Part shown: in pieces, positions 2,021 to 18,087 of the stretch
How the letters are laid out: each line of letters starts with the position of its first letter
How positions within the stretch are numbered: position 1 is the first letter of the stretch
Virus record (IMG/VR): IMGVR_UViG_3300028883_000014
Location: 1 to 46,281 of that record
From: a virus
Direction: 5' to 3' (one strand)
Length of the DNA stretch: 46,281 nt
The notes under the pieces: model-generated
What the model was told of the DNA's origin: nothing
What the model saw: only the letters and a program-made list of their open reading frames with translations
Databases searched by the model: none
Program-made: the position numbers and the translations under genes

Positions 2021-2034
2021 ATCCTGTCTCCTTC

Positions 2035-2697
2035 TTATTTCACATTGACGAAGTCGTATGTTGCCAGATTAGCAACATCGCCAACATCCTTAACAGCCAG
2101 AGATTCCCACGCCACCAACAGCGAATACTGGCCGTCGGTCTGCACGGTAGCATCCACCGTCAGGCCCTGACAGCCCTTCGTGAACACTTCTTCCGTGCGG
2201 CAGGTAAACACGTTGCTGTTCCCATCTGTAACCGTAGTTCCCACGGTTGTGGGCCACGTCGGCTCAGTCTCTGAACCTGTGGTCGTTCCCGTAACCAACT
2301 CGTAGACGAACCCGTTCCGAGTCGTCGGCCATACCACATCACCTGCGGCCGTAGTAGAACGAACTTCAAGGCCGCTGTAGTCCGTGGACGAACTGTACAC
2401 AGTCGGAACACGGAAGTTGGGATCGTTGCCAGCGGGATTCGGAACCAGAACACCCTGGTACTTGGTATCGAATTCAGCCATCGCGTCCGTGTCGCGGGTA
2501 ACGACGCCACTGGACCCCGTCAGAAGCAAGGCCCCCAGCGTGGTTGACTGGTCGTTCCACAGCTTACTATAGAAATAGATGTTGGGATTGGTCCCCTCCG
2601 TATCTTCGAAGAGGATGGCGAAGCTCGGAAGAAATCCGCAATCGACAGTAACGTCGCCGCCATCTTCGAGCCATCGTGCTACTACCGGTCTATCCAT
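2035..2697 (-). CDS. Hypothetical capsid-associated (decoration-like) protein, 220 aa
   Basis: It lies directly downstream of the major capsid gene, the usual place for a head decoration or completion protein. The first 90 residues have no clear family. Residues ~120-165 contain a carbohydrate-binding-like beta module (NGFVYELVTG, then TEPTWPTTVGTTVTDGN and FTCR). This 'W-P-T-x-x-G-x-x-V-x-D-G' pattern is common in surface-exposed phage decoration or fibre domains. The ATG follows AAAGGG. I infer an exposed capsid or tail accessory that might bind glycans; a tail-completion role is possible. Confidence 0.65.
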   Translation of the reverse strand: MDRPVVARWLEDGGDVTVDCGFLPSFAILFEDTEGTNPNIYFYSKLWNDQSTTLGALLLTGSSGVVTRDTDAMAEFDTKYQGVLVPNPAGNDPNFRVPTVYSSSTDYSGLEVRSTTAAGDVVWPTTRNGFVYELVTGTTTGSETEPTWPTTVGTTVTDGNSNVFTCRTEEVFTKGCQGLTVDATVQTDGQYSLLVAWESLAVKDVGDVANLATYDFVNVK

Positions 2698-2731
2698 GAT
2701 TAGACCCTTTCATATTGTAAAGGTTGTCACA

Positions 2732-3673
2732 TTAACCGTTCGTGCAGATCAGTACGTGGATATAGAGATCCTGAAGAATGCGGAACGCCATCCACGACTT
2801 CCAACCGATAGTCGCCCGTTGATCGAGCGGGTCAGCCGTACCGGCGCTGCCGGGCTCTTTCATCGAACCACGCAGATTCCCGCCGCCCAGATCGACCATC
2901 GCATACGGCAGATTGGCCGGATCGCGGCCCATAATCGGGCAGTAGTAATTACTGCTGGAGGTGTAGCCCTGCGTACTGGTCAGCCAGCGAACCGAGCCGG
3001 TATTACCGAACTCGCCAGGATCGACGCCGGTTGACTGAGAATACTCGACCACGTCGAGGAAGTTGCTCACATCGCGAAGATCGTCTTCCAGGGCCGTATC
3101 AGCCATGCCGACATAAGACGCCCGAACCGGAGAGGTCGCCACGCCCGTCGAAGCATTGACCCGGTCGAACATGTAATCGCAGTCGTTGTCTCGAAGTGTC
3201 TGAACGACGCCGTCGATGTCTATCTTGTTCAGCAACGTGGCCGTACCCGAACCGTTAGAACAGGTCGTACTGGACGCTGACGCACAAATGTAATCGCGGC
3301 ACAACTGATCGGTTGTGTTGTTGACCTGATCGTTCTGCAACTCCATCGTCTTGGCGACCAGATCATCCTCAACGGTCAACTTGACCACATCGGTCAGGGT
3401 GACATAGTCGCCGTACTGGCTAAGCGTTGCCGTCAAATCCACCTTGGCCAATTGCGACCCGGTGGGCGTGACACCCTCGGTCAGCGGCGTTGTGGCCGCA
3501 GACAGTCGGCTGAACCGACGAAACTTGATGGTTGTGCCCTGCTTGGTCCCAATCTGCCGACGCTCGGCAAATTTGGTGTAGATGTACTTGGGCTGCGGGG
3601 CCATAAGGAGGACGCGGTCGTACACCACTCCGACCGCTGGATCAACTTGGGTGGTACTCGTATATTGGCTCAT
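2732..3673 (-). CDS. Major capsid protein, N4-gp56 family type
   Basis: At 313 aa it is the expected size for an HK97-fold capsid protein of the group often annotated 'N4-gp56 family major capsid protein'. Visible family landmarks in order are YDRVLLMAPQPKYIYTKF near residue 20, GTTIKFRRFSRL near 45-57, TTPLTEGVTPTG near 61-72 and LSQYGDYVTLTDVVKL near 84-100. It follows a scaffold gene and is followed by a small beta-type protein, as expected for the head module. The start ATG follows AGGAG. The role is to form the icosahedral shell. No cleaved N-terminal delta domain is evident; the separate upstream gene provides scaffolding. Confidence 0.9.
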   Translation of the reverse strand: MSQYTSTTQVDPAVGVVYDRVLLMAPQPKYIYTKFAERRQIGTKQGTTIKFRRFSRLSAATTPLTEGVTPTGSQLAKVDLTATLSQYGDYVTLTDVVKLTVEDDLVAKTMELQNDQVNNTTDQLCRDYICASASSTTCSNGSGTATLLNKIDIDGVVQTLRDNDCDYMFDRVNASTGVATSPVRASYVGMADTALEDDLRDVSNFLDVVEYSQSTGVDPGEFGNTGSVRWLTSTQGYTSSSNYYCPIMGRDPANLPYAMVDLGGGNLRGSMKEPGSAGTADPLDQRATIGWKSWMAFRILQDLYIHVLICTNG

Positions 3674-3693
3674 GCCTGTATACTCCTATTTCG

Positions 3694-4479
3694 CTACGGC
3701 TGACCACCACGCTTCTGCTGCCACCACTGCTGGAACTGGTCCTGGCTCATCCCGGCTATCGAAGTGGCTTGATCCACCTGGCCACCGCCTCCGGTAGCTG
3801 CCGATATGCCCTGCGGAACCCGCTGCCCGGAACGGATCTGATCGACCACGTTGCGAGTAGACGCACCCGGCGATTGCTGTGATTTACTCGCCATCGCCTT
3901 TGCCGCATAGAAAGCCTTGACCGGGTCCCATTGCTTGCGTAGCTGCATAGCCAATATGGGGTCGGCCTTGATTGCGTTTGCAAGATGTTCACTCAACTGA
4001 CCTGTGGGTGACGTAACCACCTCGGAAAATTCCGGGCGCGCCGCCAACCACTGCTCCATCTGAGCCGTTTCCACTTGACGTTGGTTCTGCTGTTGGATGA
4101 ATCCGAAGAACTTGGTCAGATCGTCCTTGGTCAAGTACACGTCACTACCGATTCCCTGCTGCTCCATGAACTGGTGCAGTGGATCGGCCTGCTGACCTTG
4201 AGGCGGCTGTTGCTGCTGGGACTGCTGATACAGGAACTGCTGCATCTGCATGTTCTGCTGCTCAGCCGCCTTGAGCCGGTCGTTGACTTCCTTGAACCGC
4301 TCATACGGGATCGGACCTTGTGCCTGCGGCTCATCCGGTTGCCCAGCGGCGTCCTGGGGAGCTTCTTCGCCCGCGTCCGTGGCGAGTGGACGTTCTTCGC
4401 CTGTAGGCGTGGCGAGCGCCTCGATATCGCCTTGATCCGTAGCGACTGGATCGGTTACGCTAGTTGTCTCCGGTTCCAT
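3694..4479 (-). CDS. Capsid scaffolding protein
   Basis: A 261-aa protein immediately before the major capsid gene. Composition is typical of podovirus scaffolds: a very acidic, Pro/Ala-rich N-terminus (residues 1-55), then a Gln-rich helical region (KEVNDRLKAAEQQNMQ followed by long Gln runs, residues ~60-100), and a Gln/Gly-rich C-terminus ending QQWWQQKRGGQP. No catalytic motif is seen, so a head-maturation protease fusion is unlikely. The ATG follows AGAAGGG. A strong terminator lies only ~20 bases upstream, so expression depends on read-through or on a promoter inside the preceding genes. Confidence 0.85.
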   Translation of the reverse strand: MEPETTSVTDPVATDQGDIEALATPTGEERPLATDAGEEAPQDAAGQPDEPQAQGPIPYERFKEVNDRLKAAEQQNMQMQQFLYQQSQQQQPPQGQQADPLHQFMEQQGIGSDVYLTKDDLTKFFGFIQQQNQRQVETAQMEQWLAARPEFSEVVTSPTGQLSEHLANAIKADPILAMQLRKQWDPVKAFYAAKAMASKSQQSPGASTRNVVDQIRSGQRVPQGISAATGGGGQVDQATSIAGMSQDQFQQWWQQKRGGQP

Positions 4480-4499
4480 ACTGTGCCCTTCTGTACCAA

Positions 4500-4547
4500 A
4501 TAAAAAAGCCCCAGCGATTAGAGGGACATCCTCTAATCAACTGGGGC
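4500..4547 (-). terminator. Rho-independent terminator between portal and scaffold/capsid genes
   Basis: Read on the minus strand, GCCCCAG (4547-4541) pairs with CTGGGGC (4514-4508). An inner stem GATTAGAGG/CCCTCTAATC extends it, and TTTTTTATTT follows directly. This is a canonical intrinsic terminator. It ends just before the scaffold start and after the two small genes downstream of the portal, so it separates packaging/portal from capsid expression. Confidence 0.88.
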
Positions 4548-4600
4548 ATCATTTCAGCTTATCCAGTGACTCTATGTAATTGTCGTTACGCTACGTGCGC

Positions 4601-4780
4601 TTACCGCCCTTCTTTCCGCCTTTGCAACCCACCTTCTAGTTCCTCCATAGGAATAGGATGGTTCTGATGGCTCTTGATGTCACGCAACTGACCACAATAG
4701 AAATGGAATTCGATGCTCCCCGTGAACTTCGGGTGCAACACACGCCACTTCTGCACGAATTCTGTCAATTGCATCGACAT
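4601..4780 (-). CDS. Small hypothetical protein, 59 aa
   Basis: ATG at 4780 lies 10 bases after the stop of the preceding small gene, with TAGGA upstream. The protein begins MSMQLTEFVQKWRVLHP and ends in a basic tail EGGLQRRKEGR; its middle (GSIEFHFYCGQLRDI) could be a beta strand and turn. No family is recognised. It is the last gene before the terminator at 4500-4547. Tight packing and a ribosome site support it; its length limits confidence. Confidence 0.55.
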   Translation of the reverse strand: MSMQLTEFVQKWRVLHPKFTGSIEFHFYCGQLRDIKSHQNHPIPMEELEGGLQRRKEGR

Positions 4781-4790
4781 AACATTCCTA

Positions 4791-4931
4791 TCAATTCGGA
4801 TGATACTGCAAATCCGTAGACAAAAGAACCCACGTAACGTTCTCTATGTCTTTTTGGGTCAACTCAACGCCCGGCTTGGCATTTTTGTCAGGCCAAGGAT
4901 ATTCCATATCGTTCTGCTGGTCTTCTTCCAT
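4791..4931 (-). CDS. Small acidic hypothetical protein, 46 aa
   Basis: ATG at 4931 lies 2 bases after the stop of the upstream 140-aa gene, with GGAG about 10 bases before it. The product is acidic (MEEDQQNDMEYPWPDKN, then LTQKDIENVTWVLLSTDLQ). It has no recognised domain. Translational coupling to the portal-side genes is likely from the spacing. Confidence 0.55.
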   Translation of the reverse strand: MEEDQQNDMEYPWPDKNAKPGVELTQKDIENVTWVLLSTDLQYHPN

Positions 4932-4933
4932 AA

Positions 4934-5356
4934 TCAACTCCAAATCAATGGGACGCCGCGTGCATCCTGAGCCACCTTCTCAACTACCGTACCGGCGTTG
5001 TCACTGTCTTCGACCAACGTCGGCACATCCATCGGCAACGCATATTCCAACTCCATCTCACCCGTCCGATTGTCCACTCGCCAAAGCATGGTCCCCAACT
5101 GCTTGACCAATGGCCGAGACAACAATGGCGCTACGATCCGGTTGTGAATCATCTTGTTCGGCAAACGGACCTCAGTCGTCTCGATGCCATCAGACACGCT
5201 CTGGGCGGCCGGACCTTGATATTTGTTCTTGATAATGACCAGAATCCAATACGGCTTGGACAGATTCTGAAAGGCGTCTACCACCTTTTCCAGCATGGCA
5301 TACAGATCATCCGAAGCCATGCGTCGGACATCACCAATCTGAACAGGCTTAGCCAT
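4934..5356 (-). CDS. Hypothetical protein downstream of portal, 140 aa
   Basis: It overlaps the portal stop by 8 bases and has an AAAGGAAATA ribosome site. It starts MAKPVQIGDVRRMASDDLYAM and contains LSKPYWILVIIKNKYQGPA (residues ~33-51) and RVDNRTGEMELEYALPMDVP (residues ~93-112). Short genes in this position in podovirus-like genomes are often unnamed head-assembly accessories. I recognise no family and give it no function. Confidence 0.7.
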   Translation of the reverse strand: MAKPVQIGDVRRMASDDLYAMLEKVVDAFQNLSKPYWILVIIKNKYQGPAAQSVSDGIETTEVRLPNKMIHNRIVAPLLSRPLVKQLGTMLWRVDNRTGEMELEYALPMDVPTLVEDSDNAGTVVEKVAQDARGVPLIWS

Positions 5357-7298
5357 TATTTCCTTTCGCGATGTCAGCCTTCTTTGGTTGGGCCTTGATC
5401 TTTTCCATTTCTATCGCCCGATCCAACATGTCGAGCCGGGGCTGCGTCTGCATCTCCTGGAGCGTCTGGGCCGTATTAACCTTCGTCTGCATCAAATCAG
5501 CGGCCCGCTCACCCAGATGAACCTCCTCATTCCGTGTGTCGACGTCCATCTGCTTCAATGCCGCCATCTGAACGGCCTCCTGAAGCTGTTGTGCCCGTTG
5601 CGCGGCCTGTTGCTGCTGCTGCTCTTTCGCCGCCAGCGACTGCAACACACTACGCTTCATGGCCGTCGGAGCGAACTGGAGCAGATCGGACCAGGAAACA
5701 GGGAACGGATCACCTATCTCGGCCCCCATCTTCTTGAGGTTGAGCATCTCTGTATACAACGCATTGCGCTGGGTGTCCGTCAGGGTCGTCTCACAGGGAA
5801 CGGCGTCATATCGCATGAATTCCTTGTTGTAGAAGGCCGGGGATACTTCCTCACCCAAAATCCGCATAACCTTATCCGGCGGCATCTGCTGGATCAGTTT
5901 GAGTAACTTACCACCCATGACCTGATCGGCAAACGACTTATTGTCGAAGAAGTCGAACATGCCCACCATGCCCAGCCCCAACCGCATCTTGCCAACCACG
6001 CCCAGTAGTAGCTGGTCTTTCTGGTCGATCCCAAGCAATCCATCCTCGTTCAAATTGAGGATCTTGCCCGGCAGCTTGTCGAACACCTCCTGCATCTGGA
6101 GATATCCGGCAGGTAGGTTAGGCGACGGACGGTCACGGAAACGCTGCTCAGCGATAGCCCCCTGCTTAAAGAATCGCGGATGACCAGCACCCGCTGTATA
6201 CGCCTGTCTATCGTCAACTAACGCGCCCTCTTCCACGTCCAGTCCCGCCCCAATGACGCATTCCAAGGCCCGGATATTGGCTATGGTCCGGCGATCAAAG
6301 GCCCGCTGGGAGTCCTTCAACGCCCTGACAGCCGACTGGATACGCAAATGGAAGTGATCCACCTCGGGATCGAAGAACGCCATGTACGGAGTGAACGAGA
6401 AATCGCCGATCCCAAACGGGTCAACGCCATGATAAACCTCTTTGCCGTTGAGATACTGCGTTACCTCCACCGTGCGGACGGGCTCTGTAACCAGGTCCAG
6501 CGTGGGCTCCGTGGCCAGGGCCATGCGTTCTTCCGGCGTATCCGTATACTCGACCTTGTTGCCGTCCTTATCCCGGAGGTATCCGACGCGAGAGTCCACG
6601 AAAAACTGCTTATTCGCCACCGTCCTGCGAGTCCACTCGTCCAGACTCAGCAAATACTGGCCATAGAGCTTGACTCGCGGCATATTGGGGAACTTCTCGT
6701 CCTCTTCGTTCTCATGGATAAGCAGCCAGTCGATGTAATCATCGCTGTCAGCGAAGAACATCTTGGCTTCAGACGGAGTGATATACTTCCTAAGGACCCC
6801 ATACTGACAATCTGCCAGGTCCCTGCGGCTGAATCCGGGGTGCAGGATGAACTGGTTATAGCCGAACTTCTCGAAATGGATCTGGTGCTGACGGTCCATC
6901 GCGATATTGAACAACGCCATACCGGATTTCAGGGCATGGTCGAAGCAGTCACTCTTGATGTGGTAGCCCCTCCCCCGAGCCAGGGCATCGTTGGCAATCA
7001 GGGTGTACTGATTCGCCGTCATCTCATCGGAATTCTCGACCGGGTCATACCGAAGCGAGGTCCGGTTGTTGCGCTCGAAATTGCTTATCAGACGAACGAA
7101 CCGCCGAAGCAACGGAAACGACATGATCTCCCGCGCCGGCATCACCTTCTTCATATAGGCGATGTCCTCTTTCGTCCAAGTATTGTCCACGATGGCATAC
7201 AGATCATCGCGGGCGTGCGACTGCCAGTTACCCCAGGCAGTCCATGCCTGCGAATAGGCTTCATCCAGATCGGACTTTCTGTCCTGTTCAGCACTCAT
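5349..7298 (-). CDS. Portal protein, P22/podovirus-like
   Basis: A 649-aa protein directly after the large terminase (4-base overlap), where phage portals sit. Landmarks: an acidic N-terminus (DRKSDLDEAYSQAW), a WTKEDIAYMKKV helix, then FPLLRRFVRLISNFERNNRTSLRYDPVE (residues ~62-89), the portal wing region found in P22-like dodecameric portals ('x-N-R-x-x-x-x-Y-x-P'). The middle has DPFGIGDFSFTPYMAFFDPEVD and LRIQSAVRALKDSQRAFDRR (the stem/clip region). The C-terminus is a long Gln/Ala-rich helix (residues ~560-630), matching a barrel-forming tail. It forms the DNA channel at one capsid vertex, docks terminase during packaging and binds the adaptor protein. Confidence 0.88.
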   Translation of the reverse strand: MSAEQDRKSDLDEAYSQAWTAWGNWQSHARDDLYAIVDNTWTKEDIAYMKKVMPAREIMSFPLLRRFVRLISNFERNNRTSLRYDPVENSDEMTANQYTLIANDALARGRGYHIKSDCFDHALKSGMALFNIAMDRQHQIHFEKFGYNQFILHPGFSRRDLADCQYGVLRKYITPSEAKMFFADSDDYIDWLLIHENEEDEKFPNMPRVKLYGQYLLSLDEWTRRTVANKQFFVDSRVGYLRDKDGNKVEYTDTPEERMALATEPTLDLVTEPVRTVEVTQYLNGKEVYHGVDPFGIGDFSFTPYMAFFDPEVDHFHLRIQSAVRALKDSQRAFDRRTIANIRALECVIGAGLDVEEGALVDDRQAYTAGAGHPRFFKQGAIAEQRFRDRPSPNLPAGYLQMQEVFDKLPGKILNLNEDGLLGIDQKDQLLLGVVGKMRLGLGMVGMFDFFDNKSFADQVMGGKLLKLIQQMPPDKVMRILGEEVSPAFYNKEFMRYDAVPCETTLTDTQRNALYTEMLNLKKMGAEIGDPFPVSWSDLLQFAPTAMKRSVLQSLAAKEQQQQQAAQRAQQLQEAVQMAALKQMDVDTRNEEVHLGERAADLMQTKVNTAQTLQEMQTQPRLDMLDRAIEMEKIKAQPKKADIAKGNNG

Positions 7299-8884
7299 GT
7301 ATACTGCTCCTGTAACTGGCGCACCCGATCCTTACTCATTATGCCCCCCAACTTCCTGATCGCCGCCGAGACATACCGTTCGCAGTCGGCACAGTGCGAT
7401 GACCAGTCGTGTAACGGCGTATCCGAGTACACACCCTTGGACTCTGTACTCATAGAGACGTTCTTCCTACGCTGATAATGCTCCAGGGCCTCGATTCCAC
7501 CGCTGCATTCGTTCTCATGGAAGGTGGCATAGGGCAACATCTTCCGCACCCGCTCGATCCCGTCTGTAACACGCTTCTCACGGGCCAGGGTCGTAATATG
7601 GAGGCCCATTTCGGTCGCTGTGGCCCGAAGTTCCTTCCCTGTGGCCAAATCACGCTTCTTGCCGTCATGTGGCCAGAAATGCTGACCAAAATGGAGGCCC
7701 AACCGCTTACCTACGTCGAAAACGTACCGAATATAGTGTTCCAGGGGCTCCCCGGAGTTCTCATAGTAGTGAACATGGCGAATTTCGGCACCAACCTTCT
7801 GGAAAAACCAGATAGCCGTGGCATCCGACATCCCCAGATCCCATGCCGTGTGGGTCGCCACCGATTTGTCTGGGTCAAAGCCCATTCCCACCCCAATACG
7901 ACCCTCTTTGCGGGCCTCTTCCATCAACTTAAGGTAGTAGGAGCCCTCCAGATCGGCCTCATCGTGGCAATTCAGTACATACCGGCGGTATTTCCGCTGC
8001 TCCGTCTCGGTCCCCTGCTCCATCGACCGAAGATCTTCCACGAAATCCGCTGGCAGGTTATGTTCGTTGTCGAAGGTTTGGGCCTGGATGCCATAGTAAT
8101 GCTCCGGGTGCGACCGCTTGTCCGCTAACCACTGCCGCCAGACCCAATTCTTGCCGTTGGCGTTGGCTATCACGAACCCCGTCCGTACCTCTTCATACCG
8201 GAGATAGTCATGAAACGACGTCATACGGTCATCCGCAGTCCTATTCCAGAATCCATAGCACTTCCGACAGCGGACCAGGGTCGTAACCCCACGTAAATTC
8301 GGGTCAGCCGTCAAATCCTTCTTGCCCGGCTCGATCTCCAGCCCAAACGCGTCATTCCCCTCCACCAGATCGTCCGAGCCGCAGAACACACACTTCTGGG
8401 ATGTGGCCAAAAAGTCCAATCGCTGGGCATAGGATTCATAGTAGGGCTCAAATGGGTGCAGCCTGCGCCGTAACCGACCCCGGAGCATGTGAAACTGCTC
8501 AGATGTCTCGAATTCCTCAGCCTGCTCCATCGCCACAAACCCCAGATTCACGTTCTGGATCAACTGCTTCGTCGCGCCACCCGTCAATTCTTCCAGGTGA
8601 CGGAACATGATCCGACTCTTCGAGCCCGGTATCACCACATCCCTGGTACTCATGGGCACCTTCAGGCCCGTATACAACTCAAAATCCTTGATCGTGCTGT
8701 CAGCAAGGTCCTTGAATACCTTTCGGACCACCAAGCCCAGGTTGTCCTGGTAACATTGCGATAAGACCATCGCCCGCTGAATCAATACCAACGTCTTACC
8801 CGTCCCCCAACCCGCCACCAAACCAGGAAACCGGGCCTTCGAGGTCAAGAACTCCCACTGATATGGATTCAACACAACCTGCAT
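7295..8884 (-). CDS. terL: Terminase large subunit (packaging ATPase/nuclease)
   Basis: 529 aa. An N-terminal Walker A GWGTGKT is at residues 25-31, preceded by the adenine-binding-type NPYQWEF segment. The Walker B-like strand LGFVAMEQAEEF is at 114-125. The C-terminal RNase H-fold nuclease begins around TAWDLGMSDATAIWFF, whose Asp would bind metal, and more acidic residues follow. Between ATPase and nuclease lies a four-Cys zinc-ribbon-like insert (CVFCGSDD about residue 162; VRCRKCYGFW about residue 204). It pumps DNA into proheads and cuts concatemers. It follows the small subunit at a short distance and overlaps the portal gene by 4 bases. No strong ribosome site precedes its ATG, so coupling to the upstream gene is likely. 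Confidence 0.92.
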   Translation of the reverse strand: MQVVLNPYQWEFLTSKARFPGLVAGWGTGKTLVLIQRAMVLSQCYQDNLGLVVRKVFKDLADSTIKDFELYTGLKVPMSTRDVVIPGSKSRIMFRHLEELTGGATKQLIQNVNLGFVAMEQAEEFETSEQFHMLRGRLRRRLHPFEPYYESYAQRLDFLATSQKCVFCGSDDLVEGNDAFGLEIEPGKKDLTADPNLRGVTTLVRCRKCYGFWNRTADDRMTSFHDYLRYEEVRTGFVIANANGKNWVWRQWLADKRSHPEHYYGIQAQTFDNEHNLPADFVEDLRSMEQGTETEQRKYRRYVLNCHDEADLEGSYYLKLMEEARKEGRIGVGMGFDPDKSVATHTAWDLGMSDATAIWFFQKVGAEIRHVHYYENSGEPLEHYIRYVFDVGKRLGLHFGQHFWPHDGKKRDLATGKELRATATEMGLHITTLAREKRVTDGIERVRKMLPYATFHENECSGGIEALEHYQRRKNVSMSTESKGVYSDTPLHDWSSHCADCERYVSAAIRKLGGIMSKDRVRQLQEQYT

Positions 8885-9097
8885 TTAGCTATTCTGGTCT
8901 GCCATGGCGACATCGTCGGCTCCCTTTTCCTCCCCGTCACCACACCAATCGTTTTTACTCGTTACTGGCCAAACCATAACCGCCAATGGCTCATCAACAG
9001 AAGTATCACGACACGGACGAGGAGCATACCGAAAACAAAATCCAAACCCTTCCCCATGGGGCGACCAATACCGGCAATACTCACAACTTCTAATCAT
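8885..9097 (-). CDS. Small Cys-rich, probable zinc-binding protein, 70 aa
   Basis: It starts MIRSCEYCRYW and continues GFGFCFRYAP, with VWPVTSKNDWCGDGE near residue 43-57. The pattern C-x2-C-(12-13)-C, a Pro-rich link and x-W-P-x-T-x-x-x-D-W-C-G recurs in many phage and prophage small proteins and suggests one structural zinc site. Its start overlaps the previous stop (ATGA) and it ends directly before the terminase start, so it is translationally embedded in the packaging operon. Function unknown. Confidence 0.7.
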   Translation of the reverse strand: MIRSCEYCRYWSPHGEGFGFCFRYAPRPCRDTSVDEPLAVMVWPVTSKNDWCGDGEEKGADDVAMADQNS

Positions 9098-9380
9098 TGC
9101 TCACGTCCTCCGCGCCAGCCAACGTGGCCTCTATCTTCGCCAGCCGGGCCTCCTGCCTCCGTGTAGCCGCCAGCAACGCATGGACCGTGTACGCCAGCGT
9201 CCTGTCTGACGTGGGAGCCTCTATGGCCCAATCCGCCTTCGGAGCCAGTAAGCCCTCCGTCAGAATGGGATCAAGGCCAGGTGCAGGCGATGGAGCAGCA
9301 TACAGTAGTGCGATGGTCCAGCCGCCCAGGACAACCACAATTACGCCAATAGCCAATGTTAACTTGTCAAATCTGTCCAT
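9090..9380 (-). CDS. Small membrane protein with C-terminal helix, 96 aa
   Basis: One clear transmembrane segment (residues ~7-28, LTLAIGVIVVVLGGWTIALL) is followed by a Pro-rich linker (PSPAPGLDP) and a helical tail (LLAATRRQEARLAKIEATLAG) that could form a short coiled coil. The ATG is preceded by GGAAGGA. Single-pass proteins of this layout can be spanins, holins or inner-membrane adaptors, but the position between terminase genes does not decide this. No family recognised. Confidence 0.65.
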   Translation of the reverse strand: MDRFDKLTLAIGVIVVVLGGWTIALLYAAPSPAPGLDPILTEGLLAPKADWAIEAPTSDRTLAYTVHALLAATRRQEARLAKIEATLAGAEDVSND

Positions 9381-9585
9381 GTGTCATCCTTCCAATAGAT
9401 TCCAGTACGATCGGGTCTTGAATAGGGTTTGGGGAGGGAGTATGGGGGATAGGGTCCCATATCGCAATCCGCTGCCCCATATAAAAAACCCGGATTCCAG
9501 GCCGGCAAGGCTCCATCCAACCTGCCCCAAGAAGCCCGATTCGCAACATTCTGCCTATTCTATTGCAGTGAGAGCCGGTATTCAC
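9367..9585 (-). CDS. Doubtful small ORF, 72 aa
   Basis: A GTG-initiated frame (MNTGSHCNRIGRMLRIGLLG) fills the stretch between the small terminase and the 96-aa membrane protein and overlaps the latter by 14 bases. The ribosome site is weak and the Pro/Ile-rich composition is unlike its neighbours. If it is not a gene, 9381-9625 is a 245-base non-coding spacer with no other visible feature. Confidence 0.25.
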   Translation of the reverse strand: MNTGSHCNRIGRMLRIGLLGAGWMEPCRPGIRVFYMGQRIAIWDPIPHTPSPNPIQDPIVLESIGRMTHGQI

Positions 9586-9625
9586 CCAAACCTAAGCCCT
9601 TGTATAAGCAAGGCTTATATCGACA

Positions 9626-10024
9626 TCACATTATCACCATCCCTATCTGGTTTTGGCGCTGCCGATTGTCCTGTTCGAAGGCTCCCAGGTGCTTGCCCAA
9701 CTGATTCAAAGCCACGTTGGCAGCGGAGCGGTCGTGCGCTACCTTGCTATCGTCCAGCACCCAGACCTGCTGCTCACGCCACCAATCCAGGTCCAGCTTG
9801 CTGTAGTCCCTGATGCTGGCCTTCACCCGCTCTATCGCTTGGGTAACCTTGGGATGCCTGAGCAACTCATGGCCGGACTTACCCAAGGTGTTATCACTGC
9901 CCTTATACCCTGCCAGCTTGCACGCTAACGTGGCATTACCGTGCGCCTCCCCGAGGTAGGCTGCCACGAAGAGATTCTGCTTCAGGGTCAGACTTGGATC
10001 ATGTTGGGTAATGGTTTGTTCCAT
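9626..10024 (-). CDS. terS: Terminase small subunit
   Basis: 132 aa from the ATG at 10024. An upstream in-frame ATG at 10063 would add 13 residues. The N-terminal LTLKQNLFVAAYLGEAHGNA, LACKLAGYKGSDNTLGKSGH and LLRHPKVTQAIERVKASI blocks match the terminase_2-type helix-turn-helix: tandem 'P-K-Q-x-x-F-x-x-x-Y', 'A-x-x-A-G-Y', 'L-L-x-x-P-x-V'. It should recognise the packaging site and load the large subunit. It is the first gene of the long minus-strand series, directly downstream of the intergenic regulatory region. Confidence 0.85.
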   Translation of the reverse strand: MEQTITQHDPSLTLKQNLFVAAYLGEAHGNATLACKLAGYKGSDNTLGKSGHELLRHPKVTQAIERVKASIRDYSKLDLDWWREQQVWVLDDSKVAHDRSAANVALNQLGKHLGAFEQDNRQRQNQIGMVIM

Positions 10025-10574
10025 GTCTGCCAGTAGATCATAGTATAAGCAGATGTCAAGCATTAAATCAGATAATCTTATATCTGAATGCTGTTTGTTT
10101 GAATGCTTAAAAGCGAAGCGCGCATAACCCGCCCCTGCGCCGCAGGGTCACATTTAAGAGCTTTGGGCTCTAAGGTAGTTCCCTGCTTCTCCTCGATCCT
10201 ATTGTTGCTCTCGCGGATCGGCTGACAGTCGGGGGGTCGTGGTCGGGTTACTGTCAGGCTTATAGGTACGTTCTACCGTACCCTATCACCCTATCACGGT
10301 GGTGAGCCGGGACCAATGCCAGTCGTGCATCCCCGCAGGGCAGACGGTGCAGAGCCGCCACAATCAATTGTCTATGGCGCCTTATACCGGCCGCGCGTGA
10401 TCTTGTCAAGCGATATATTTTTCTTAACACCACGTGTCCATTTGCTTGCTCCCCCCACTCCGTTGCAACATTTTCACCATGGGAGCAAAATATTTTCGCG
10501 TGCCTAATTGCTTGTCTATAACACACTTACACACAGTATTAGATAAGGCTAACACATTATCAGCAATTAAACTG

Positions 10575-10603
10575 TTGCATTTAGGCTCCTGAACCGTTAT
10601 ATA
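10575..10603 (+). promoter_or_regulatory. Candidate sigma70-type promoter for the plus-strand early genes
   Basis: TTGCAT (10575-10580), a 17-base spacer and TATATA (10598-10603), about 60 bases before the first plus-strand ATG. Four to five bases of each hexamer match the vegetative consensus, and the surroundings are AT-rich. Confidence 0.5.
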
Positions 10604-10642
10604 TAGTAGTAGCACATGACGAGCATATTTTTGACAACCACA

Positions 10643-10653
10643 CACTATAGGAG
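10643..10653 (+). promoter_or_regulatory. CACTATAGGAG element 1 (extended ribosome site / T7-like core)
   Basis: CACTATAGGAG ends 9 bases before the ATG at 10662. The GGAG is a Shine-Dalgarno sequence; the conserved CACTATA before it is more than a ribosome site needs. The same element precedes four more plus-strand genes. Confidence 0.7.
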
Positions 10654-10661
10654 ACACGACA

Positions 10662-10997
10662 ATGGCAACCACAACGACAACCATTAGCAACGGCACACTA
10701 ATCGACGATCGTACAATTCGTCGGTTGGACGCCCTCGTACCGGACGCTGATACGCAGGACCGCATCGATGGACGCGTAGGCTGGTCTTACTATGGTATCG
10801 ACCTGGGCGGCAACACGTGGACGTGGACGGTCTACAATGGCAACCCTGAGCCCCATTATGAGGAATATCTCCTCGACCAGGACAAGGCGCTAACGATGGA
10901 GATGCACGACCATATTATGGCCATTGCCGACGAGGTAGAGAGTTGGGATCCATGCCATGCTAACTGGTTACGAGAGACCCTGCGAATGGATGTTTAA
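10662..10997 (+). CDS. Hypothetical early protein, 111 aa
   Basis: First gene of the plus-strand block, with promoter-like hexamers ~60 bases upstream and a CACTATAGGAG leader. It starts with a Thr-rich stretch (MATTTTTISNG) and continues with RIDGRVGWSYYGIDLGGN and a Trp/Tyr-rich middle (TWTWTVYNGNPEPHYEEYL), then an acidic helical C-terminus. I know no matching family. Position suggests an early host-takeover or regulatory protein; that is inference. Confidence 0.7.
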   Translation: MATTTTTISNGTLIDDRTIRRLDALVPDADTQDRIDGRVGWSYYGIDLGGNTWTWTVYNGNPEPHYEEYLLDQDKALTMEMHDHIMAIADEVESWDPCHANWLRETLRMDV

Positions 10998-12530: not shown

Positions 12531-13253
12531 GTGAATAAACCCATCAATGATTCTATCCGCATCCATGACCTGATCGCCGCCGCCAAACAGATACGGCGAC
12601 AGCGCAACGGACCAAAGAAGCCTGCCAAGGCTCAACTGGACGTAACCGAATACCTCGAACCGCCTGAGCTACTCTCTTTCATCCGTTTCATGCGCCGGCA
12701 ATCTAGCAAACGGAAAAGCCGGGCCGCTATCCAGAACTGCACTATGGCGGAGATCCTAGCCCTAGCTGGTCTACGTGCCTCAGAACTGTGTCACCTAACC
12801 TTGGCCGATGTGCCGCCCCTGCGCGGTGACGGTACGCTCAGGGTGGTGAACGGCAAGGGAGGGAAAACCAGACTGGTCAACATACCGCCCGACCTGACAA
12901 CAACCATAGACCACTGGGTTAGGGTTTACCGCAAGCAGATTATGCCAACGCACTACCTATTTGTCACTAGGAACAACAAACCCTATTCGCATGTAGATAT
13001 CTGGAAGCGTTCGCAGGTCTGGTTCCGGGAATGGCGGGAATCAGGCACAGCACCAGACAGGGAGATGCATCTATCACCCCATTCACTACGCCATAGTTAC
13101 GCCAGTCGATACCTCCATATCAATGGCTCAGACGCCCTGGCACATCTCCAAATGCAGCTCGGACACAGCGACATCAAAACTACCATGATCTACGCCAGAA
13201 CAACCAGCGTGGATAATCAACGTTTCGCCGCAAACCTTACTATAGGAGACTAG
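12531..13253 (+). CDS. Tyrosine recombinase / integrase
   Basis: 240 aa with a full catalytic set: Arg82 (in AGLRASEL), Lys109 (NGKGGKTR), His184 and Arg187 (SPHSLRHSYA), His212 (QLGHSDIKT) and the Tyr221 nucleophile (MIYART). The N-terminal arm/core-binding part is short (~65 aa), so it resembles XerC/D-like or short phage integrases. The GTG start is preceded by GAAGGAG. It could integrate the phage genome or resolve circular multimers. No repressor or attachment site was identified. Its last codons ACT-ATA-GGA-GAC-TAG contain the CTATAGGAG element of the next gene. Confidence 0.9.
   Translation: MNKPINDSIRIHDLIAAAKQIRRQRNGPKKPAKAQLDVTEYLEPPELLSFIRFMRRQSSKRKSRAAIQNCTMAEILALAGLRASELCHLTLADVPPLRGDGTLRVVNGKGGKTRLVNIPPDLTTTIDHWVRVYRKQIMPTHYLFVTRNNKPYSHVDIWKRSQVWFREWRESGTAPDREMHLSPHSLRHSYASRYLHINGSDALAHLQMQLGHSDIKTTMIYARTTSVDNQRFAANLTIGD
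13239..13248 (+). promoter_or_regulatory. ACTATAGGAG element 5 (inside the recombinase 3' end)
   Basis: The element is kept although it overlaps the last codons of the recombinase. It lies 9 bases before the ATG at 13258, which argues that its sequence is selected. Confidence 0.7.
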
Positions 13254-14007: not shown

Positions 14008-14199
14008 ATGAAATGGGACCGAGGATCGAACGGCTGGACCTGTGGCGACTACCGGATCGCCCCAGCCTACAGAAAGCCGGGCTTGTTTGCCCTGCATTGT
14101 GGCACCGACCTGCTGATGTACTGCGGCAATTTTGGCACAGCCGTTTTAGAGGCCCAGAAACACCAGCGACGGAAGAATAGGAAGGAGAATGAATTATGA
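14008..14199 (+). CDS. Small hypothetical protein, 63 aa
   Basis: A strong AAAGGAGGA ribosome site sets the start at 14008 (MKWDRGSNGWTCGDYRIAP) rather than at the upstream in-frame ATG. It has a Trp/Gly-rich start, FALHCGTDLLMYCGNFGTA in the middle and a highly basic tail (KHQRRKNRKENEL). It overlaps the next start by 4 bases (ATGA). No family recognised. Confidence 0.7.
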   Translation: MKWDRGSNGWTCGDYRIAPAYRKPGLFALHCGTDLLMYCGNFGTAVLEAQKHQRRKNRKENEL

Positions 14200-14474
14200 A
14201 AACTAAACTGTTCGTTTTGGTTATCGCCCTGATGCTGTGGCTGGCCTCGCTGGCCCCGGCTACACTGAACTTCAACCGAACTGGCGTACCGATTACCGTC
14301 CCCCTGCATCGGTGGTACTGTCCTGGCAACGGGGATCATTTCTATACGTCGGACATCCAGGAACATATCTGGATGCAGGCTAACATGACCCAATGGTACA
14401 TCTACGAGGGTATCCAGTGTTATGTATTTCCCTGTGCCGTCGAGGCCTATAGCGATGGCTCGATAGGAAACTAG
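14196..14474 (+). CDS. Secreted protein, DUF5648-like single repeat, 92 aa
   Basis: A Sec signal (MKTKLFVLVIALMLWLASLA) is followed by PLHRWYCPGNGDHFYTSDIQE and WYIYEGIQCYVFP. The 'L-x-R-x-x-x-P-x-x-G-D-H-F-Y-T ... Y-x-x-E-G-I-x-x-Y-V' pattern is the DUF5648 repeat found in exported bacterial proteins, some linked to peptidoglycan or surface functions. Here it is a single exported repeat directly before a strong terminator and the lysis genes, so an envelope role in lysis or superinfection is a reasonable inference. Confidence 0.75.
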   Translation: MKTKLFVLVIALMLWLASLAPATLNFNRTGVPITVPLHRWYCPGNGDHFYTSDIQEHIWMQANMTQWYIYEGIQCYVFPCAVEAYSDGSIGN

Positions 14475-14500
14475 ACTCCCTTTCTTCCTCTCTCATTGCG

Positions 14501-14538
14501 AAAGCGCCAGAATTCGTAGGGACTCTGGCGCTTTTTTG
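14501..14538 (+). terminator. Strong rho-independent terminator
   Basis: AAAGCGCCAGA (14501-14511) pairs perfectly with TCTGGCGCTTT (14524-14534), followed by a T6 run. It closes the transcript ending with the secreted protein and separates it from the lipoprotein/lysozyme pair, which must use its own promoter or read-through. Confidence 0.92.
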
Positions 14539-14609
14539 TTAACCCCCTTGTCAGATATATCCGATAGTTTGGGTATCACACTAACCCATTTTAACAGGAG
14601 GTAGACATC

Positions 14610-14786
14610 ATGGCCAAACACAAATGGATCGAGTTGGCAAGTATCTGGATTGTACTGACATTGTCATTACTACTGCTGTACGCCGGGGGCTGTAACACCA
14701 CGCAGGGCATCGCCCGAGACGTGGCTATCGGGGCCAAGGGCGTAGCCGACGGCATGACCCATTACACGGAGGCGAACCCAGAATGA
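14610..14786 (+). CDS. Entericidin-like small lipoprotein, 58 aa
   Basis: The ATG at 14610 follows ACAGGAGG. A hydrophobic segment (WIVLTLSLLLLYAGGC) ends in a lipobox-like A-G-G-C, followed by NTTQGIARDVAIGAKGVADG. The C-N-T-x-x-G-x-x-x-D motif after the lipidated Cys is the hallmark of the entericidin EcnA/B family of small toxic or antidote lipoproteins. Beside a lysozyme-like gene it could act as the outer-membrane spanin component or as a membrane-destabilising lysis factor. The -3 residue of the lipobox is Ala rather than Leu. It overlaps the next gene by 4 bases (ATGA). Confidence 0.75.
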   Translation: MAKHKWIELASIWIVLTLSLLLLYAGGCNTTQGIARDVAIGAKGVADGMTHYTEANPE

Positions 14787-15223
14787 CACCGACAATAACA
14801 CAACGATTGATCGTATTGGGCATACTAGGAACCACTATCGGCATGATCGTCGCCCTGGTAATGGCCGATCCAACCCCTGTGCCTACGCTGGACAAGACTT
14901 TGGTGGCCATCTGGATGGTTGAGTCATCTGGCAGGTTAAATCCCCCTGACGGCGATTCTGGGGCCTCTATTGGCCCGATGCAGACCCAGCGGGCCTGTTG
15001 GACGGATGCGATGGGGTTTCTGAACGAGGATTGGCCCTACGAAGACGCAAGGGATCTTGACAAAGCCCTAACCGCCTGCGCTGCCTATGTGGTAGGCTGG
15101 CAAAGGCATCTGAACTATCCGGGAATTCCGGAGACTTGGGCTAGGATATGGAATGGTGGTCCCCGTGGACCAGAGAAGCAGGCGACTCTGGCCTATTGGC
15201 GCAAGATACAACGTCACCTTTGA
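14783..15223 (+). CDS. Endolysin: membrane-anchored lytic-transglycosylase/lysozyme-like protein
   Basis: 146 aa. A hydrophobic Gly/Ala-containing segment (residues ~9-28, LIVLGILGTTIGMIVALVMA) forms a signal-anchor of the kind seen in SAR endolysins. The catalytic domain starts near residue 40: VAIWMVESSGR with the likely catalytic Glu47, then ASIGPMQTQ (the 'G-P-x-Q' substrate-loop motif of SLT-type enzymes), and ARIWNGGPRG near the C-terminus, matching the 'x-x-Y-N-G-G' motif. It should cut the glycan backbone of peptidoglycan in the periplasm. It is translationally coupled to the lipoprotein gene and converges on the minus-strand transcript. Confidence 0.85.
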   Translation: MTPTITQRLIVLGILGTTIGMIVALVMADPTPVPTLDKTLVAIWMVESSGRLNPPDGDSGASIGPMQTQRACWTDAMGFLNEDWPYEDARDLDKALTACAAYVVGWQRHLNYPGIPETWARIWNGGPRGPEKQATLAYWRKIQRHL

Positions 15224-15235
15224 GATGCCCGCCCA

Positions 15236-15272
15236 ATCGGTGCGCTCTGCTTCACTGGCGGGGCGCACCGAT
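15236..15272. terminator. Convergent hairpin between plus- and minus-strand transcription units
   Basis: ATCGGTGCGC (15236-15245) pairs with GCGCACCGAT (15263-15272) across a 17-base loop. It lies 12 bases after the lysozyme-like gene's stop and covers the last codons of the opposing gene. There is no U-tract on either side, so it may slow or block polymerases rather than being a strict intrinsic terminator. Confidence 0.5.
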
Positions 15273-15647
15273 CCATCGTTCTTGCCACTCCCAGCGCGGA
15301 TGCCACTCATCATCGAGGAAACTGTAATACCGTCCTCCCAGGCCATAGACCAGCCACGCCACCAGCCACCTACCCCGCGTCCATAATAGACCAAACACCG
15401 CCACGCCCAGCAGGAATATGCCTCCCCATGCCGCCACATAATCCAGGAACGATGGACGATCCATACCCAGGACGATATAGGCCCCATAGAACGATCCTAC
15501 ACACATCAGCCCGCCCCAATACATCCCAATCGACAGAGTGTATGGGCACCATACCCAATTCGGGACACACGCCCGCACCATCAATACAGCCACGCCAATC
15601 CACACACACAGGGGAACGACAACTACGCCTAGAATGTACCAGACCAT
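15252..15647 (-). CDS. Multi-pass membrane protein, partner of the radical SAM gene, 131 aa
   Basis: Three to four hydrophobic segments are visible: about residues 4-26 (YILGVVVVPLCVWIGVAVLM), 37-60, 68-90 (DYVAAWGGIFLLGVAVFGLL) and a short one near 93-105. The tail is Trp/Arg/Asp-rich (DDEWHPRWEWQERW). The start follows TATAGGAGA and lies 6 bases after the radical SAM stop, so the two genes are co-transcribed. Its size and topology would fit a holin, and it lies opposite the lysozyme gene. Alternatively it could carry or anchor whatever the radical SAM protein modifies. No family recognised. Confidence 0.7.
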   Translation of the reverse strand: MVWYILGVVVVPLCVWIGVAVLMVRACVPNWVWCPYTLSIGMYWGGLMCVGSFYGAYIVLGMDRPSFLDYVAAWGGIFLLGVAVFGLLWTRGRWLVAWLVYGLGGRYYSFLDDEWHPRWEWQERWIGAPRQ

Positions 15648-15653
15648 CTGCGC

Positions 15654-16448
15654 CTATCTCCTATACCACCGACTGAACCAGTGGCGAATATGCCATACGT
15701 TGAGCCAGGGGATATGGACTATTGCCCCTATCGGCCCACCCCAAAACCCGGCCTCGAATACCAAGCCCAATACATCAGCCGCACCATACTGGCCGTGGAA
15801 GATACGCTGATTAGCCGGGCAATTCAAACAGCGATCCTGCCGCCTAATATCCCGCCCACGTAGAATATCTATGAACGGCTCATCCAGATCTACGCCACCC
15901 CTGGCTTCTAGGCAGGCGTTGCTACACCCATACACTTTGCCGTCGGGACCTAGATGTAGGCCCACGGCCACGCAAATAGCAGGCCAGCCACGCGCCGGTG
16001 AAACCTTTGGGCCATCGAACATCACATTTCTGTGGACCACCCAACTGACATGGAAGCGGCGACCTAGTTGCTTCCGCAGTCGCAGGATATCCTGGCGATT
16101 GATCGCCCCATAGTGTGTCACACGGACACTGTCTATGCCATCATACGCATCCGATGGCTGCTTCACGCCATTGCTGATACATGTTACCCTATCAACCAAG
16201 CCCCGTTCCTTGCTCGCTCGCGCCGCCCAGCACAGATACGGCCAAAGCGTTGGCTCACCTCCGTTGAAGTCCAAGGTCTTGAGCGGCCAGTTCTGATATG
16301 CAAGGCGATCCAGAAATCGGGCAAACGTCTGTTTGGATAACGAACCCTGGACCCGATCAGGACAGAGCCTTTGCACGCAGGTCGGACAATTGAGATTACA
16401 GGCCCAGGTGGGGTAAACTTCGGCGTTACGTAACTCCCGATCCGTCAT
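15654..16448 (-). CDS. Radical SAM protein with SPASM-like C-terminal Cys cluster
   Basis: 264 aa. The CxxxCxxC motif that binds the SAM-cleaving 4Fe-4S cluster is at Cys17, Cys21 and Cys24 (ACNLNCPTC). The SAM-binding GGEP motif is at residues 63-66 (LDFNGGEPTLW), and SNGV follows at 92-95. The C-terminal part has Cys159, Cys175, Cys179, Cys207 and Cys210 (DGKVYGCSNAC, DRCLNCPAN), a SPASM/twitch-like layout for an auxiliary cluster. Such enzymes usually modify peptides, proteins or small metabolites. The last ~45 residues are aromatic and hydrophobic (HIPWLNVWHIRHWFSRWY), like an amphipathic membrane-contacting helix. GGATGG precedes the ATG. The substrate is unknown; the co-transcribed membrane protein is the obvious candidate partner. 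Confidence 0.88.
   Translation of the reverse strand: MTDRELRNAEVYPTWACNLNCPTCVQRLCPDRVQGSLSKQTFARFLDRLAYQNWPLKTLDFNGGEPTLWPYLCWAARASKERGLVDRVTCISNGVKQPSDAYDGIDSVRVTHYGAINRQDILRLRKQLGRRFHVSWVVHRNVMFDGPKVSPARGWPAICVAVGLHLGPDGKVYGCSNACLEARGGVDLDEPFIDILRGRDIRRQDRCLNCPANQRIFHGQYGAADVLGLVFEAGFWGGPIGAIVHIPWLNVWHIRHWFSRWYRR
15658..15665 (-). promoter_or_regulatory. TATAGGAG element on the minus strand
   Basis: TATAGGAG about 10 bases before the ATG at 15647, overlapping the 3' end of the radical SAM gene. It is the only clear minus-strand copy of the element seen before the plus-strand early genes. Confidence 0.5.
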
Positions 16449-16452
16449 AATG

Positions 16453-16974
16453 TCACCATCCTAATACCTTCTTCCTGCAAGCCGTGGTCGCAAACCACTG
16501 ACCCGACACGTTTTTCTGACCCGCCAACCCACAGCCACAGGCACAGAGCCGGGCGGATCTAGTCCCTTGGGCGACATACCCCTCGGGCATTTCGTCCAGC
16601 CATCGCTGGGCATGTAGCCAGGTGGCCGGGTGCAGGGGCCTGAAACCGATGCCATCCTGCTTTTTGCGCTTGGCCTCATGGGCGGTGTAGGCTGGCAACC
16701 CGTCTAGAATGGCCTGGACCTCTGTCGTGGATCGAGCCTGAGCATAGGCTTTCAGGGCAGCACCTTTACCTAATTTATGTCCCTTGGGGAGATTGGGCCA
16801 AAATTGCTCCTCGAACTCCTGCTTAATGGCAGCCGTGACTCGGCCCTTTGGTGATGGGCTAGCCAAACAGCGATTGGCTATCTCGACACAGATAGCGTCG
16901 ATTAAGGCCTCGACGAACTCAGTCCGGTCCTTGGCGTCCCGTACTGGCTGCCAATGGTCCTCAATCACGGCCAT
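16453..16974 (-). CDS. Replisome-organiser-like protein with C-terminal zinc motif, 173 aa
   Basis: The centre (FWPNLPKGHKLGKGAALKAYAQA, residues ~58-80; AILDGLPAYTAHE; then FRPLHPATWLHAQRWLDE, residues ~112-129) follows the C-terminal domain of phage replication-initiation and helicase-loader proteins: 'W-x-x-x-P-x-x-x-x-K-x-x-A-x-x-A' followed by 'P-x-x-x-x-x-P-A-T-W-L-x-x-x-R-W-x-D-E'. A C-A-C-G-C-G-L-A-G stretch plus ACRKK at the C-terminus could bind zinc. The usual N-terminal DNA-binding domain is missing or very short. It could recruit host helicase; this is inferred from the domain alone. Confidence 0.6.
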   Translation of the reverse strand: MAVIEDHWQPVRDAKDRTEFVEALIDAICVEIANRCLASPSPKGRVTAAIKQEFEEQFWPNLPKGHKLGKGAALKAYAQARSTTEVQAILDGLPAYTAHEAKRKKQDGIGFRPLHPATWLHAQRWLDEMPEGYVAQGTRSARLCACGCGLAGQKNVSGQWFATTACRKKVLGW

Positions 16975-17242
16975 TGCCCTCGTACCGTAATCGGTCAGAT
17001 GGTCGTGGCGCAGGCCGCATCAGAACAGCCATACAACATGGATACGTCCACTCATACCCAGGTAATCCCACCGGCATCCAATCAGGTACGTCCACCCAAC
17101 CCTGCGCCTTCAGCCTACGAATGGGTTCAAACAGTTCCCGCTCCGGGTCGAAGTTGTCAGCCAGGAATCTGAATGAATCCTCTGTGCATACAATATCATA
17201 GTCAGTCATGGACCTGAACCTCATCATCAAAGCAGTGGTCAT
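16961..17242 (-). CDS. Hypothetical protein, 93 aa
   Basis: Begins MTTALMMRFRSMTDYDIV, then CTEDSFRFLADNFDPERELFEP and RRLKAQGWVDVPDWMPVGLPG. No family recognised. It overlaps its neighbours by 4 bases at the start (ATGA) and 14 bases at the end, typical of this cascade. AGGG precedes the ATG. Confidence 0.65.
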   Translation of the reverse strand: MTTALMMRFRSMTDYDIVCTEDSFRFLADNFDPERELFEPIRRLKAQGWVDVPDWMPVGLPGYEWTYPCCMAVLMRPAPRPSDRLRYEGNGRD

Positions 17243-17424
17243 TCACCCTGTTCTGTCTCCCGCCGGGCTAATAATAAATCGAGCCCAATACATGACTCCG
17301 TACTGTGCGGCACGATGGTATGGTCTGGATCAAGATGTGTAATGATATCGAGTAGCTCCAATCCAATCTCAACCAGGCAATCCCGCTCGTGAATCCACAT
17401 AATGCAATCTTCGCATTCGTTCAT
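17239..17424 (-). CDS. Small hypothetical protein, 61 aa
   Basis: The start at 17424 is chosen because GGAGG lies upstream and the ATG overlaps the previous stop (TAATG). It begins MNECEDCIMWIHERDCLVEI, giving three closely spaced Cys, and ends LLLARRETEQGE. It is acidic and probably helical. Too short for a family call. Confidence 0.65.
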   Translation of the reverse strand: MNECEDCIMWIHERDCLVEIGLELLDIITHLDPDHTIVPHSTESCIGLDLLLARRETEQGE

Positions 17425-17624
17425 TATGATACCCTCCGACTTAATTGCTGTTGCGACCAACACGACTTGGCCTGGCCGGGGCTCTGGCAGCGCACACTCT
17501 CATTTCCACACGTCATACACGCCACGAAATCTTCATCGTTGGCCACATCATAGGTCAGTACGACGTGCGTGCTGCCGCAAGTACAGCGGCGCAGGGGGCG
17601 GGGCTTGTTGCGATTAAGGGCCAT
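17424..17624 (-). CDS. Lar-like zinc-ribbon protein, 66 aa
   Basis: RRCTCGSTHVVLTYDV, then FVACMTCGNESVRCQSPGQA and a final SCWSQQQ give the layout 'C-x-C-G-S ... V-x-C-x-x-C-G ... A-x-x-x-W'. It resembles restriction-alleviation (Lar/Rac-type) and related small zinc proteins of phages, although the first pair is C-x-C. If truly Lar-like it would modulate host type I restriction; that assignment is weak. It is the first gene after a ~240-base spacer (17625-17862) that shows no convincing gene. Confidence 0.6.
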   Translation of the reverse strand: MALNRNKPRPLRRCTCGSTHVVLTYDVANDEDFVACMTCGNESVRCQSPGQAKSCWSQQQLSRRVS

Positions 17625-17862
17625 GATATTGCTCCTTTCCGCTCAAGAACGGGCACACCTTTTTACTGTCGTCATCAGTCGTCATAACCAGAGTCCCTAA
17701 CCATATGGAAACAAGAAAGAAGGCAGGCAGGGGGACTCATCCTCGACATCCCAGAGAGAAGAGGAATCTGGGTGATGTTGGACGCATCTGGTAATTTCTT
17801 TGCCCAACGGCCCTTCTGTGCCCCCTGCCCATCTCTATTAGAGCAAAACGTATGCTTTATCG

Positions 17863-18087
17863 TCAAGAATGGGTATTCCATAGTGTATTCCGTATCGACG
17901 CCGCTCCTCGCTGCCGCTCAATGTGGTCCTGCTCGGCCTGTTCCATTCCCATCCCCTCACAGGGCAGGCCATCTGGGGCATTGTGTGGGTCCGGAGTCCA
18001 GCCCATCTTGTAGATCCACGTAGCTTCTACCAACAGGCCACACTCGCTGCAACAACGGGTGGCACGCTTCCAGGGGATGATGGTCAT
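17863..18087 (-). CDS. Small zinc-finger-like protein, 74 aa
   Basis: RCCSECGLLVEATWIYKMGW (residues ~11-30) is followed by PDPHNAPDGLPCEG, a pattern with Cys12, Cys13, Cys16, His35 and Cys43 that could bind one zinc. The C-terminal part is charged and helical (MEQAEQDHIERQRGAA). It starts 3 bases after the methyltransferase stop. Similar short 'C-x-x-C-G ... H-x-A-P-D-G-x-P-C' proteins are frequent in phages; function unknown. Confidence 0.7.
   Translation of the reverse strand: MTIIPWKRATRCCSECGLLVEATWIYKMGWTPDPHNAPDGLPCEGMGMEQAEQDHIERQRGAASIRNTLWNTHS

Follow-up and report, generated by a model that had tools for sequence, protein, structure and literature searches.

Two related motifs describe the C-terminal auxiliary Fe-S clusters of the radical SAM proteins with which the phage enzyme considered here may be compared. 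The SPASM motif has seven cysteines, CX9-15GX4C-CX2CX5CX3C-C, and two auxiliary clusters (PMC6231123). The twitch motif is a truncated SPASM, CX9-15GX4C ... CX2C, with one auxiliary cluster (PMC6231123, PMC9012708). BtrN (PDB 4m7s, 4m7t) is the 2-deoxy-scyllo-inosamine dehydrogenase of butirosin synthesis. It oxidises an aminocyclitol, and its single auxiliary cluster, ligated by four cysteines, is the proposed electron acceptor (PMC9012708). The PDB title of SpeY (7wzv, 7wzx, 7x0b) names it a twitch radical SAM dehydrogenase. Similarity is a poor predictor of function amongst radical SAM enzymes (PMC6231123).

The window, i.e., the whole 46,281-nt stretch of DNA that was analysed, comes from IMG/VR virus record IMGVR_UViG_3300028883_000014. 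Judging by the exact repeat at its two ends, the record appears to represent a whole phage genome, whose unit length is 46,154 unique bases. It encodes structural and packaging proteins (portal, major head protein, large terminase, and small terminase), a DNA methyltransferase, a Gam-like protein, and a phosphoesterase. There is also a tyrosine integrase, and the phage is probably temperate. The structural region includes a 1250-aa protein (34013-37762, minus strand) with the large polyvalent protein domain LPD38 (7e-43). The features at and around the locus, in window coordinates, are as follows.

1-127 and 46155-46281: exact terminal direct repeat of 127 bp, the first 127 bases of the window recurring at its end
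12531-13253: tyrosine integrase, from a PHROG profile search
14196-15223, plus strand: lysis-like genes, encoding a DUF5648 protein with a signal-peptide-like start, a 58-aa protein in which LLYAGGC resembles a lipobox, and a lysozyme-like protein whose N-terminal part includes a hydrophobic segment
15236..15272, no strand: 15-nt inverted repeat spanning the convergent gene ends (folding z -1.87)
15252..15647, minus strand: small membrane protein, 131 aa, with three hydrophobic segments (about 5-23, 44-62, and 71-89) and a W-rich charged C-terminus
15654..16448, minus strand: twitch radical SAM enzyme, 264 aa (open reading frame; PHROG 1802, 3e-10; PF04055, 2e-4; fold matches to SpeY, 3e-10, and BtrN, 2e-7)
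15657..15818, minus strand: hydrophobic, aromatic, cationic tail of the enzyme, residues 211-264 (hydropathy 1.6 at 226-244; last 12-residue window amphipathic, moment 0.63; low model confidence)
15819..15974, minus strand: twitch region, C159-x10-G170-x4-C175...C207-x2-C210, from a motif search; a profile of two sequences lines it up with the twitch of BtrN
16251..16262, minus strand: GGEP (residues 63-66), SAM contact; G64 and E65 invariant and P66 nearly so in an alignment of 19 proteins
16377..16400, minus strand: CxxxCxxC (C17, C21, C24), ligands of the SAM-binding cluster, invariant in the same alignment
16453..16974, minus strand: upstream gene of the same operon, resembling the C-terminal part of phage replication/primosomal proteins (phrog_9327, 3.5e-14; phrog_270, 1e-11)

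The genes of the enzyme and the membrane protein form the end of a minus-strand operon, downstream of the replication-like gene, from which 4 bases separate the enzyme gene. The pair is convergent with the plus-strand genes at 14196-15223, which are probable lysis genes, and between them lies the inverted repeat, a possible two-way terminator.

The first-pass annotation, made from sequence alone, had delimited both open reading frames correctly, including the spacer of 6 bases (15648-15653) between the stop of the enzyme gene and the start of the membrane gene. The motifs and C-terminal cysteines on which it based a radical SAM identity are all present, the full set of cysteines being 17, 21, 24, 29, 73, 90, 159, 175, 179, 207, and 210. 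When the whole enzyme was shuffled 200,000 times, CxxxCxxC followed by GGEP appeared once. PHROG 1802 (radical SAM) matches the enzyme with an E of 3e-10. Pfam's PF04055 (Radical_SAM) matches residues 12-95 with an E of 2e-4 and 21.8 bits, below the curated cut-off of 29.5, which is a recognition threshold and not a defining trait. Many NCBIfam radical SAM models match as well, the best at 1.6e-7, far below their cut-offs. All of these matches fall in the N-terminal half. Motif and fold argue strongly for membership of the radical SAM superfamily, and since the Pfam and NCBIfam matches lie below curated cut-offs, the enzyme is a divergent member, outside any named subfamily.

A degenerate or inactive gene might have been suspected from the codon-use scores of the enzyme and membrane genes, which lie at the low end among the genes of this phage, and from the poor matches of the enzyme's C-terminal half. 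However, every motif residue is intact within a full-length open frame, and the named frame is the best of six by codon use, for the membrane gene as well. I regard degeneracy as very improbable. Very likely the gene is genuine: its product belongs to radical SAM and carries a twitch auxiliary domain, and its role is accessory.

The C-terminal region had been described as a SPASM-like auxiliary layout. An auxiliary cluster is supported by both motif and fold, but the domain is a twitch, half a SPASM: C159-x10-G170-x4-C175...C207xxC210 conforms to the twitch motif and equals the first four cysteines of SPASM, and no cysteine of the enzyme lies beyond C210. A SPASM assignment was dropped for that reason and for lack of a match to PF13186. 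The pattern C-x9-15-G-x4-C...CxxC arose in 257 of 200,000 shuffles (0.13%) of residues 120-264, and G170 and C175 are nearly invariant across the 19-protein alignment. Judged by position, C159, C175, C207, and C210 are expected to be the ligands of one predicted auxiliary Fe-S cluster, and C179 is probably not a ligand, since the twitch/SPASM motif has no counterpart for it. Sequence profiles lend the region weak support. One built without the enzyme gave 58.9 bits to the N-terminal half and 1.9 bits to the C-terminal part, and its total of 62.5 bits, against a maximum of 61.1 in 200 C-terminal shuffles, may be taken as modest backing for the twitch half.

Three named families were considered and dropped. 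MoaA scores 14 bits against a cut-off of 284 and has a three-Cys cluster with an open site, as opposed to the four auxiliary cysteines here. Prokaryotic viperin (NF038283) scores 27 bits against a curated cut-off of 180, and QueE fails on cut-offs or cysteine layout.

An AlphaFold2 model of the enzyme, made on the 19-protein alignment, has a mean pLDDT of 67 and a pTM of 0.72, with confidence below 50 at residues 139-159 and 200-264, which include C159 and the CxxC pair. The best 50 matches listed by Foldseek in the PDB are radical SAM enzymes, first SpeY (3.3e-10), next BtrN (2.2e-7), and then BlsE, MoaA, EpeE, and viperins. TM-scores against the SpeY and BtrN folds are about 0.5, and near the CxxC pair the model's confidence is low. 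Among phage proteins, the closest one to align with the enzyme over both halves has 227 aa and is encoded at 5983-6663 of IMG/VR contig 3300005470_000022 (called L034 below). It is likewise a compact radical SAM protein, with 23% identity to the enzyme (BLASTP 7e-8) and the same four-Cys layout, but it lacks the hydrophobic tail. A profile of these two sequences found BtrN as its best match in the PDB (8e-10, positions 5-237). This match leans on the L034 protein, which by itself matches BtrN, whereas the enzyme by itself does not.

The peptide maturase SkfB and the epimerase EpeE, with twitch/SPASM folds, are both among the fold matches, and the protein encoded directly downstream is small and contains Cys and Trp. 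One might therefore imagine an enzyme that modifies the membrane protein or some other phage peptide, e.g., a lysis or exclusion factor. I consider this improbable: with 16 residues preceding C17, an N-terminal peptide-recognition domain is impossible, the partner is a three-pass protein and not a leader-core peptide, and peptide maturases come lower in the fold ranking than SpeY and BtrN. For a nearby precursor-peptide gene, coverage extended to a Pfam scan of the small minus-strand ORFs upstream of the enzyme (16964-18087). Of the targets suggested by the first-pass annotation, a peptide is disfavoured; the enzyme may instead modify the envelope or a sugar.

The 54 residues that follow C210 had been likened to a membrane-contact tail. 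They are indeed hydrophobic, aromatic, and cationic, ending in a cationic amphipathic stretch, and by virtue of this composition they may contact the membrane. The membrane gene is preceded by GGTATAGGAGATAGGCGCAG-ATG, with a Shine-Dalgarno-like AGGAG within the last codons of the enzyme gene. On the plus strand, one frame across this gene likewise lacks stops, but its codon-use score is much worse. Three hydrophobic stretches and the three helices of a single-sequence model support the prediction of a multi-pass (three-pass) protein. The proposed membrane partner is plausible as a gene, but its membership of a conserved pair is not supported. No relative was found in phages or IMG/VR, and no family in Pfam, PHROG, or NCBIfam at E<=0.1, those of holins and GtrA-like flippases included; a fold search gave nothing below E 0.3. 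A partnership with the enzyme is a tentative proposal, drawn from adjacency, the shared operon, and the enzyme's tail.

Class I holins have three hydrophobic segments and a charged C-terminus, which the membrane protein resembles in size and layout, and the convergent genes look lysis-like. It is conceivable from these facts that the three-pass protein is the holin of the lysis system and the enzyme unrelated cargo beside it. That reading is a poor prospect, given that the membrane gene lies on the strand opposite the lysis genes, at the end of a replication operon, that no holin family is recognised by sequence, and that the weak fold matches to holins have E above 3.

Close relatives of the enzyme were not found in phages at 1e-3 (a further phage search gave only weak matches), in IMG/VR or plasmids, or, at 1e-9, in about 890 sampled genomes of three phyla, these last searches being without a positive control. 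In a scan of genome contigs, the matches listed represent almost entirely N-terminal radical SAM similarity, and closer relatives are possible beyond those listed. Profile searches of two phyla gave N-terminal matches only, and a neighbour-based search with the upstream gene (16453..16974) gave nothing. The first mixed alignment of relatives was too diverse and was dropped as a search query. Radical SAM matches are absent from all 24 viral contigs whose terminase or head protein relates them to the window; most are short fragments, and six are 13-44 kb in length. Because radical SAM is absent from these six distantly related phage records, the enzyme gene looks like an accessory (cargo) gene.

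The view that such enzymes are uncommon in phages is not supported by a search of a viral structure library, which yielded 30 matches to the enzyme at E<=1e-3; most of these bear radical SAM or Fe-S names, and SPASM annotations occur among them. Separately, a protein of a Mycobacterium prophage exceeds the Pfam SPASM cut-off. Outside the queuosine type, phage-borne radical SAM enzymes mostly lack a known function.

The surroundings of twitch/SPASM relatives in other phages were compared by means of five IMG/VR contigs (L032-L036) found by radical SAM search, a small sample of differing lengths. In 5 of 5, genes for sugar enzymes lie within about 4 kb of the relative.

L032: NeuB, cytidylyltransferase, carbamoyltransferase
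L033: nucleotidyltransferase
L034: glycosyltransferase-methyltransferase fusion
L035 and L036: glycosyltransferases with sulfotransferases

Glycosyltransferase 2 occurs somewhere in all five records (in four above the curated cut-off and in one below it, about 11 kb away), as compared with 1 of 12 other phage records (1/6 amongst relatives of the window phage, 0/6 amongst those with other radical SAM proteins). It is absent from the window.

Two of these contigs deserve description in their own right. L032, a 115-kb viral contig, has a sialic-acid-type sugar cassette (1788-10742; NeuB, cytidylyltransferase, and carbamoyltransferase) that encloses its radical SAM gene. In L034, the compact twitch radical SAM gene adjoins a peptidase-like gene, genes for small membrane proteins, and the fusion, a 1008-aa protein with glycosyltransferase and methyltransferase domains that is encoded upstream (1905-4928).

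I favour, with a probability of about 0.4, the reading that the enzyme and the membrane protein constitute an accessory pair that would act at the membrane to oxidise or epimerise, by radical chemistry, a sugar of the host envelope, altering the cell surface. A sugar is proposed because the nearest folds are those of dehydrogenases, BtrN acting on an aminocyclitol, and because carbohydrate genes stand beside the phage relatives. The reasoning draws on neighbours in fold and on gene surroundings in other phages, and not on what this genome itself contains. Counting against it, no sugar enzyme is recognisable in the complete genome, the membrane partner is not conserved, the twitch half has weak sequence support and in part low model confidence, and similarity predicts radical SAM function poorly.

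A genome lacking sugar genes and a membrane protein lacking relatives or a demonstrated link to the enzyme would also suit an auxiliary metabolic gene, its twitch radical SAM product having a soluble metabolite or cofactor of the host as substrate and its membrane-protein neighbour being unrelated. Phages carry radical SAM enzymes of many kinds, 12 having been reported in a single genome (PMC5332604). I judge this alternative to be somewhat unlikely, insofar as the six-base spacing, the common operon end, and the hydrophobic tail suggest a shared location for the two proteins.

Under the favoured reading, modification of an envelope sugar, SAM at the first cluster would be cleaved to give a 5'-deoxyadenosyl radical, which would take a hydrogen atom from a carbon of the substrate. 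The auxiliary cluster, fully ligated by cysteines, would accept the second electron and so complete a dehydrogenation, an oxidation by two electrons like that proposed for BtrN. Alternatively, the substrate radical would be re-protonated to yield an epimer. More weakly, the substrate might be a sugar, or something sugar-like, in the host envelope. The tail, aromatic and cationic, would bring the enzyme to it at the membrane, the three-pass protein would serve in docking or delivery, and the infected or lysogenic cell would end with an altered surface. It is a good deal more speculative, and doubtful as it stands, that the twitch enzyme, tethered to the membrane, works with its three-pass partner on an envelope sugar linked to lipid and thereby changes the phage receptor, a surface conversion based on radical SAM chemistry. 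The broader idea raised is that some phages alter the surface sugars of their hosts by radical chemistry.

Set against the described enzymes, the phage protein is closest in fold to SpeY (3e-10, TM-score 0.49, 21% identity over the alignment). It is shorter, 264 aa as against about 300, and has the hydrophobic tail as an extra. BtrN is similar to it in size but has no known membrane tail and a different genomic setting. Prokaryotic viperins match its N-terminal half weakly (27 bits), and the twitch cysteine pattern sets it apart from them. To the phage twitch/SPASM group, the gene adds a possible attachment to the membrane.
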